DNA of 34,616 nucleotides, from contig JAMCZG010000036.1 of the NCBI GenBank assembly GCA_023485715.1, positions 1 through 34,616 on the forward strand, given 5' to 3'. The position numbers and the translations under genes were made by a program. Origin of the DNA: Patescibacteria group bacterium. GTDB lineage: Bacteria; Patescibacteriota; Microgenomatia; Levybacterales; UBA12049. Positions 12,612-14,392 of this stretch are shown one piece after another. Under the pieces are notes generated by a model. The model saw only the letters and a program-made list of their open reading frames with translations, had not been told where the DNA came from and did not search any database. Every line of letters begins with the position of its first letter. Within the stretch, counting starts at the first letter, position 1.

Positions 12612-13691
12612 ATGCTGATTAAGCCTCAAACTACAAATTTTGCAAAAATTCGGGTGATGGGGATTGGTGGTGGGGGAACAAACGCCTTAAATTCGATGAT
12701 CACACAAAGCCAGATTCAGGGAGTCGATTTTGTCGCCGTAAATACAGATGCGCAGGCGCTTTTAATGTCGCATTCGGCAACAAAACTTCAGATCGGTGAA
12801 AATTTAACCAGGGGTTTAGGGTCGGGCGGGGATCCGGAGATCGGAAAGCAGGCAGCAGAGGAATCTGAAGGAAAAGTAAGAGATATGTTGGAAGGTTCGG
12901 ACATGGTGTTTTTAGCGGCCGGAATGGGCGGGGGAACAGGGACAGGCGCATGTCCGACGATCGCAAAAGTTGCAAAGGAACTCGGTGCCTTAACTATAGC
13001 AGTGGTAACAAAACCGTTTTCGTTTGAAGGGACAAGAAGGATGGTAAACGCAGAGGACGGAATCGAAAACCTTAAAGACAAAGTTGACACACTGATTGTT
13101 ATCCCAAACCAAAGGATTTTAGATGTTGTTGATAAAAAACTTTCGCTTTTAGAAGCGTTTAAAGTTGCCGATTCTGTTTTATCCCAGGGAGTGCAGGGGA
13201 TTTCTGATTTAATCACGATGCCAGGACTTATAAACGTAGATTTTGCAGATGTACGGTCGATTATGACAAACGCGGGGTCGGCCTTAATGGGAATCGGGAC
13301 GGGAGTCGGGGAAAATAGGGCACAAACCGCAGCGAGAACCGCGACATAAATCGATATATCTGAGATTTCGATGGATGGCGCAAGGGGGGTACTCTTCAAC
13401 GTTATCGGGGGGCCCGATCTTACGATGAGCGAAGTAAACGACGCTGCCCAGATTATTTCCCAAGCTGCAGATCCGGATGCAAATATAATTTTTGGCGCGA
13501 CAATCGACGAAACGATGCACGACCAGATGAAAATTACTGTTATAGCGACGGGCTTTGACCAGACAAAGCAAAGGTTAAAGCAATTTGTACCAGAGCCAGC
13601 TGCTCAAGAACCGGTTAAACCAGCAGAACAGCCTAAAGAACAGGAAGAAGACGTTTGGGATATTCCCGCATTCCTAAGACAGAGGAATTAG
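12612..13691 (+). CDS. ftsZ: Cell division protein FtsZ, interrupted by an in-frame TAA at 13347-13349
   Basis: [61 protein letters not shown]-[TAA][29 protein letters not shown], C-terminal peptide [13 protein letters not shown]. Both halves are in the same frame. Confidence 0.92.
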
Positions 13692-13709: not shown

Positions 13710-13738
13710 TTGACAGCGCGATTGTTTAGTGTAATTAT
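13710..13738 (+). promoter_or_regulatory. Putative promoter upstream of leader ORF/terminator
   Basis: Perfect TTGACA (13710-13715), 17-nt spacer, AATTAT (13733-13738, 4/6 to consensus), with TATAAG overlapping nearby. Confidence 0.45.
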
Positions 13739-13744
13739 AAGACC

Positions 13745-13786
13745 ATGAAAATCCTCTTTGGTAGTAATAAATTAATTACTATATAA
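13745..13786 (+). CDS. Candidate 13-aa leader peptide MKILFGSNKLITI
   Basis: ATG AAA ATC CTC TTT GGT AGT AAT AAA TTA ATT ACT ATA TAA. Its stop codon overlaps the first bases of the terminator stem. No SD. Confidence 0.35.
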   Translation: MKILFGSNKLITI

Positions 13787-13806
13787 CCACCTCCGGGTGG
13801 TTTTTT
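13785..13806 (+). terminator. Rho-independent terminator / candidate attenuator
   Basis: AACCACC-TCCG-GGTGGTT, 7-bp perfect stem with a 4-nt loop, followed by further Ts. Confidence 0.75.
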
Positions 13807-13833
13807 AGTGGAGCGAAAGGAGGTGAAATATAA

Positions 13834-14337
13834 ATGAAAAATTTACTTATTTTAGTTTTTGTTTTTTCCTTTTTCCTTTTTGTTCCGAAAGTTTCAGCAG
13901 GATTTGATCAATACGGATACAATGATACAGCAAGAAATTTTGTAGGTACCGGATCCAGCTGGTGTCAGGGAAAATTGGGTTGGGACGAAGCTGCTTGTGA
14001 CGCATATATGGGCGCTTGGGCAGACGACAAGTTGGTTATGAAGTGGAATGCAGAATGGGATAGGGGAAATAAAGAAGAATGGACAGATCCGAACGGATAT
14101 GATGCATGGATCAATAACGAATGGAATGGAAGAGTAGATGGTTCTGGCGAGATTTGGCATTACAAAATAGCGTGGGATAAAGGGTGTGCCGATGGTAGCA
14201 CTCCTGCAAATGTCGCCAAAGGTTCGGCCTATTGTATATGGGGTCCATTCGCAATGCTTCAGAGCCAAGGTTCGGGAGCAGATAGAGTTCATGTTTGGGA
14301 TGTTCTCTTAAAGCCCGCGGGATACGGAGCGTATTAG
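13834..14337 (+). CDS. Small secreted Trp-rich hypothetical protein
   Basis: Signal peptide MKNLLILVFVFSFFLFVPKVSAG; mature part rich in W/D/G (DDKLVMKWNAEWDRG, DAWINNEWNG, EIWHYKIAWDKGC, CIWGPFAMLQSQG). Consensus SD AAAGGAGGTG upstream. Confidence 0.8.
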   Translation: MKNLLILVFVFSFFLFVPKVSAGFDQYGYNDTARNFVGTGSSWCQGKLGWDEAACDAYMGAWADDKLVMKWNAEWDRGNKEEWTDPNGYDAWINNEWNGRVDGSGEIWHYKIAWDKGCADGSTPANVAKGSAYCIWGPFAMLQSQGSGADRVHVWDVLLKPAGYGAY

Positions 14338-14356
14338 TTATTTTTGAGAAAATTTA

Positions 14357-14392
14357 AACAGCCCATCGGGGAAACTCGGTGGGTTGTTTTTT
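14357..14392 (+). terminator. Rho-independent terminator after the secreted protein gene
   Basis: AACAGCCCATCGGG-GAAA-CTCGGTGGGTTGTTTTTT: 14-bp stem including GU pairs, GAAA tetraloop, T run. Confidence 0.85.

Follow-up and report, generated by a model that had tools for sequence, protein, structure and literature searches.

In the ampC attenuator of E. coli the promoter sits in the 3′-terminal part of the preceding operon, whose own terminator is the attenuator; the leader carries a minimal start-stop ORF with a Shine-Dalgarno sequence (SD), and ribosome occupancy is said to give growth-rate control. To our knowledge, gene regulation in the host-dependent CPR bacteria, with their sub-megabase genomes, is nearly unknown. 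In the pyrBI operon of E. coli, a short ORF (pyrL) runs into an intrinsic terminator, and a ribosome that follows the polymerase closely blocks the hairpin, leading to readthrough (PMC5021804, PMC4824070), so that the pyrL terminator is suppressed by translation (PMC5021804). pyrL is 135 bp long and passes through the terminator, the system senses UTP via polymerase pausing, and the genes controlled are those of pyrimidine metabolism. In E. coli, translation up to a stop codon a few bp before a terminator represses that terminator almost completely (termination falls from ~90% to <10% at 5 bp), the classic amino-acid attenuators have more than 20 bp between the stop codon and the terminator, and ribosomes rarely catch the polymerase within the first 100 bp unless the polymerase pauses (PMC4824070). 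Premature terminators were surveyed broadly by Naville and Gautheret 2010 (PMC2965389), the work nearest to the present subject. In the open-licence PMC papers searched, no report of attenuation in Patescibacteria was found.

The leader analyzed here is located 3′ of ftsZ in the window, that is, the whole 34,616-nt stretch of DNA under study, which corresponds to contig C34 in a genome of 797 kb and 68 contigs; the relatives used for comparison are Microgenomates (the source is a Levybacteria-related MAG). All the elements that the original prediction had proposed, i.e., promoter, mini-ORF, terminator, SD and ATG, were present, each at its predicted position. Two further elements, the CCTCTTT partner of the SD and the AU-rich hairpin, had escaped the original prediction. 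The features are as follows, all of them on the forward (+) strand:

13710-13738, +: sigma-70-type promoter, with TTGACA at 13710-13715, a 17-nt spacer and a TG-extended AATTAT at 13733-13738
13745-13786, +: 13-codon mini-ORF, MKILFGSNKLITI followed by a stop, with ATG at 13745-13747 and TAA at 13784-13786
13753-13759, +: CCTCTTT, second possible partner of the SD, which pairs with AAGGAGG 13817-13823 in the minimum-energy fold
13761-13782, +: AU-rich 8-bp hairpin (13761-13768/13775-13782), possible pause hairpin
13785-13806, +: intrinsic terminator AACCACC-TCCG-GGTGGTT, with a 7-bp stem at 13785-13802 and a T-run (T6) at 13801-13806
13788-13794, +: CACCTCC, in the terminator 5′ arm and loop, exact complement of the SD core GGAGGTG
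13816-13826, +: strong SD, AAAGGAGGTGA, with the core GGAGGTG at 13819-13825
13834-14337, +: secreted-protein gene, 167 aa, with a signal peptide called by eye
14356-14389, +: terminator-like hairpin 3′ of the secreted-protein gene

The promoter is the top promoter-like site within 4 kb (10/12 plus TG). The ATG of the mini-ORF lies 6 nt downstream of the −10 box, at the expected transcription start, hence the mini-ORF is probably leaderless. Its TAA reaches into the base of the terminator stem. The ATG of the secreted-protein gene is found 27 nt after the T-run, and the gap between the T-run and the SD is too small to accommodate a promoter, so that transcription of the gene must pass the terminator. 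The 167-aa product had no match in Pfam, NCBIfam or PDB, and its family is patchy, with homologues across Patescibacteria and in some other phyla. An ORF of at least 10 codons running into a hairpin is unremarkable for a single leader (null 0.185 for the window), and the support for the mini-ORF is therefore comparative.

As in pyrBI, a short ORF runs into an intrinsic terminator, but in the window this ORF is 13 codons long and stops on the 5′ arm, the gene behind it encodes a secreted protein, and pausing is only putative. The window shares with ampC the promoter at the end of an upstream operon, a terminator in the place of the attenuator and a short leader ORF, which is here a 13-codon, probably leaderless ORF rather than a start-stop with an SD. 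The trp, phe and his leader-peptide attenuators (Rfam, e.g., RF01859) likewise have a leader ORF and a terminator before the gene; unlike them, the window has no run of control codons in MKILFGSNKLITI and no antiterminator, and its stop codon is on the terminator arm. In erm/cat-type translational control an anti-SD sequence overlaps the mini-ORF or lies next to it, as is the case here, but the window has a terminator with a T-run. When the window was compared with Rfam (riboswitch, T-box and leader families), no match was obtained at gathering or relaxed thresholds, and the score for Phe_leader, 16 bits against a cutoff of 55, was at chance level; the same search in 40 related loci returned tRNA and rRNA only.

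The region 3′ of ftsZ is variable among the relatives. G001, from the same genus and with an FtsZ that is 98% identical, carries a different gene after ftsZ, without such a leader. A homologous leader was found after ftsZ in G009 (same family, other genus), with an identical length of 124 nt from TTGACA to ATG and ~65% identity to the window over these 124 nt (z = 18, 0/300 shuffles). The whole unit, including the SD, is kept in G009, and so are the −35 box, TTTAGTGnnATTATA and the exact −10-to-start spacing, the latter being similar in many of the trp-like leaders described below. The alignment and covariation analysis that the original prediction had called for supported the terminator stem, which shows in G009 a compensatory pair change (A-U to G-C) with respect to the window, but not the AU-rich hairpin: G009 has a similar hairpin in a different register, and this element was dropped as a conserved feature because of that. 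The G009 ORF has a GTG at the position of the ATG, no early stop, and is open to the start of the gene. Homologous loci that keep the terminator and lose the mini-ORF had been named beforehand as evidence against regulation, and G009 goes part of this way, as it keeps terminator and SD.

The leader of G009 precedes an unrelated 350-aa secreted protein. After ftsZ of G037, a promoter, the mini-ORF MHINFCLYSAF and its stop, an AACCACC-TTTTT-GGTGGTTTTTT terminator and an SD precede a third unrelated secreted protein; the stem is AACCACC/GGTGGTT, and the TAA is at the same place as in the window. Clear sequence homology was limited to two leaders, those of the window and G009, i.e., to one close homologue. 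Co-conservation of the leader with the secreted-protein gene was considered and rejected, since the leader is absent among the homologues of the secreted protein; in most of these, the promoter lies immediately upstream of a GGAGGTGA-type SD and there is no terminator. Since unrelated secreted-protein genes are found behind similar leaders, the leader behaves like a module of its own, independent of the gene. In G004, G027 and G074, promoter-plus-terminator units without a close SD follow ftsZ.

Copies of the ftsZ 3′ end (~CCCGCATTCTTAAGACAGAGGAATTAA) recur downstream of ftsZ in the relatives, 26 bp to 7.5 kb away (loci L076, L079, L082, L083, L085, L086, L091 and L095; three copies in G022), as though the 3′ end of ftsZ served as a cassette site or for integration. 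The leader and the secreted-protein gene of G009 sit between ftsZ and such a copy, and in G018 the ORF directly after ftsZ resembles, by eye, a tyrosine recombinase. No att-like copy of the ftsZ 3′ end was found within 15 kb in the window, so no cassette boundary can be claimed there. The ftsZ of the window itself contains an in-frame TAA (13347-13349) inside an 18-nt stretch, ACATAAATCGATATATCT (13344-13361), which replaces the IASPLL of the G001 ftsZ and keeps the frame on both sides; this is either an assembly error or a broken ftsZ.

A census of terminator-then-SD sites was taken with the pattern GGTTTTTT-N4..25-GGAGGTGA, with the reversed pattern as a control. In the class, 57 matches were obtained in 43 of the 119 relatives, against 6 with the reversed pattern, and in a phylum sample of 135 genomes from other classes there were 12 matches against 6. 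The arrangement is strongly enriched in the class and near background elsewhere in the phylum. A covariance model of the leaders of the window and G009 gave weaker matches of the same architecture. We read 54 leaders and split them into sets by whether the product looked secreted (hydrophobic N-terminus). The simpler reading of the original prediction, an ftsZ-operon terminator with readthrough, is less consistent with these results, as G001 lacks the leader and the terminator-SD arrangement occurs at many unrelated loci. Attenuation, the reading it had put forward as a candidate, gained support, in that the arrangement of promoter, mini-ORF, terminator and SD was met again in front of other genes and in further genera, much more often than in the control.

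Set A comprises 33 leaders (within L119-L169), mostly of small, uncharacterised, non-secreted proteins. A leader ORF ending 30-75 nt before the T-run was present in 31 of them against 7.6 expected (P 2e-18; here and below, thresholds were chosen after the leaders had been seen, the genomes are related and P values ignore this kinship). A −10 box with at least 5/6 matches, located 5-13 nt before the ATG, was found in 20 leaders (0.6 expected), and 30/33 contained an antiterminator segment that can pair with the 5′ arm of the terminator (6.7 expected, P 2e-23). The stop codon lies a median of 29 nt upstream of the arm (range 23-49). Judged from their sequences, these leaders have the classic trp-like attenuator anatomy, with segments 1-4 and an SD. 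Their peptides, which include MKRSLNFWFYYFTSR, MENFGFFYFTS, MVKNLIVKKVKKNSSVRGFCR and MKNTMNTKSNWQDLPVGEGAFS, are rich in Phe/Trp/Tyr, Lys-Lys, Asn-Trp-Gln or Ile/Leu. One member is found in the window's own genome, on contig C17 (L160, G000:C17:1-130); its peptide ends in SLNFWFFYFTSR before the stop, and G001 has SLNFWFYYFTSR in this place. The set A leaders that were searched in Rfam gave no match.

Set B consists of 14 leaders, including that of the window, before secreted or surface proteins, several of them TasA/camelysin-like (PF12389). An ORF of at least 10 codons running into or up to the hairpin was present in 11 of the 14, against 2.5 expected (P ~3e-7). The distance of the stop from the 5′ arm was −1 in four leaders (window, L154, L121 and L168) and ranged from −8 to +33 in the remaining ones, with no overlap with set A, although an in-frame TAACC arises fairly easily by chance, owing to the AACC base of set-B-like stems. 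An antiterminator segment was found in 1/10 of the set B leaders against 1.1 expected, and the best candidate in the window was 4 bp. With respect to the published limit of stop-terminator spacing, set A lies on the far side, whereas set B lies on the near one. That set B leaders lack an antiterminator segment argues for ribosome occlusion rather than classic codon-stalling attenuation. The earlier proposal that a ribosome would end translation on the 5′ arm was upheld as to the stop position, which is real and recurrent, with occlusion as the favored mechanism. Set B mini-ORFs often begin with an M-x-(L/I)-P-like motif, i.e., MKLPK and MTLPK in L106, L133 and L168 and MSIPA or MFLPN in others; L106, L133 and L168, all before surface-protein genes, also have a common upstream ACCGCAAACGGAGG element.

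We propose, with a probability of roughly 60%, that 13710-13833 is the leader of the secreted-protein gene and acts as a translation-coupled transcription attenuator of the pyrBI/ampC kind. Transcription would start at, or a few nt before, the ATG at 13745, so that the mini-ORF would be read from an essentially leaderless end. A ribosome behind the polymerase that reaches the TAA at 13784-13786 would cover the 5′ arm (13785-13791), block the hairpin and allow readthrough. When no ribosome is present, because of failed initiation, lagging translation or an early stall, the hairpin would form and transcription would end near 13806. Production of the secreted protein would thereby be tied to translation capacity, and, once the polymerase has read through, the 5′ arm would be free and could pair with the SD, adding a second check. 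In favor of this proposal, an intrinsic terminator lies between promoter and gene in the window and is kept in G009 with a compensatory pair. Against it, the leader tracks neither the secreted-protein gene nor its function among the homologues, and G009 starts with GTG and lacks the early stop. In addition, the ribosome would have to catch the polymerase within ~60 nt, which would need a pause, and the pause site is only putative.

The element could instead be a constitutive partial terminator, acting on transcripts that arrive from upstream or begin at the new promoter, whose fixed readthrough sets a low level of expression, with the mini-ORF untranslated or without a role. The 7-bp, 4-GC stem is short and could be leaky, mini-ORFs arise easily in AT-rich leaders, as the null value for the window indicates, and the missing early stop of G009 points in the same direction. 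However, in set B the number of ORFs that run into the hairpin exceeds the expectation about fourfold, a strong promoter before a terminator makes little sense as simple insulation, and the architecture is class-wide, so that we regard this explanation as rather unlikely.

The folding of the leader bears on an erm-type translational switch, in which the 5′ arm or the CCTCTTT at 13753-13759 shuts translation off by masking the SD as long as the mini-ORF carries no ribosome. Compared with 200 shuffles, the 64-nt leader folds better than every one of them (z −3.6). The exact complementarity of CACCTCC with GGAGGTG, noticed originally, was confirmed; the 7-bp helix is unique in the 797-kb genome (one occurrence, reversed control 0), and among the loci sampled (~0.5 Mb) it occurred at 0 of 22 further GGAGGTGA sites. 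The predicted energies of the two helices, which share the 5′ arm, are nearly equal (−11.3 kcal/mol for the terminator hairpin and −11.8 kcal/mol for CACCTCC:GGAGGTG). The SD-masking form wins in the predicted fold without upstream RNA, whereas with upstream RNA the minimum-energy fold keeps the terminator and the SD is masked by CCTCTTT. Most of the SD core is paired in the fold predicted for the full-length leader. Masking of the SD by the arm is thus possible in the window, but it does not extend to the group: the window shows strong anti-SD pairing by the 5′ arm, G037 and G009 show it in part, and most set B leaders lack it (the arms AACCAGT, CCAGCC and CCACG do not match the SD), and the anti-SD helix is not conserved across set B. 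Purely translational control would also leave the conserved T-run unexplained, and we consider such a switch improbable as the main mechanism.

A classic amino-acid attenuator, in which stalling at control codons of the mini-ORF switches an antiterminator, is suggested by the set A leaders of the same class, which have exactly this anatomy, and by the 3 Ile and 2 Leu among the 13 codons. It is nevertheless very improbable here: neither the window nor set B has an antiterminator segment, the stop is at −1 nt, on the 5′ arm, instead of >20 nt upstream, and the secreted-protein gene is no known amino-acid gene. That promoter and terminator are a small-RNA gene giving a ~62-nt RNA, with the secreted-protein gene read via leakage only, is suggested by the units without a close SD after ftsZ in G004, G027 and G074, but it can hardly be upheld, given an SD within 10 nt of the T-run and a unit that is kept in G009 with its SD included.

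Beyond this locus, the two sets may reflect a class-wide system in Microgenomates of leader-peptide attenuators, mostly leaderless and mechanically of two types, with leaders that move as modules between unrelated genes; to this broader reading we give an even chance. Set A would then work by codon stalling, with SD/anti-SD-like stem arms, and set B by occlusion, before secreted and TasA-like surface proteins. The dozens of leaders in related species suggest that ribosomes decide whether the polymerase reads on into such genes. If this is true, ~100 nt of RNA, with no protein factor, would sense translation or charged tRNA directly, and surface and secreted proteins would be tied to the translational state. 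The signatures (a leaderless ORF, the stop-hairpin distance, and whether segment 2 is present) are simple enough for genome-wide mapping, and the set A leader peptides could hint at the signals for many uncharacterised CPR small proteins.

Several minor observations were made on these leaders. Among 49 leader terminators, the bases just 3′ of the T-run were nearly always RTG(G), as in AGTG, GTGG or ATGG; a second mini-ORF starting there and ending in the TGA of GGAGGTGA was considered and rejected, since the frame is not kept. CCTCC, which mimics an SD/anti-SD, was found in about half of the stem arms of the same 49 terminators, with 8 ordinary terminators used for comparison. L136 and L166 carry T-box-like motifs (GGTGGTACCACGG and GGGACCGCGGG) before small unknown proteins, with no Rfam match at the gathering score. 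In L114 (~1501-1657), an Ile-rich leader peptide, MNMKFAGIIGIIITR followed by a stop, and a terminator precede a putative threonine dehydratase gene, which was identified by eye, an arrangement that looks like a textbook case of isoleucine attenuation, here in a CPR bacterium.
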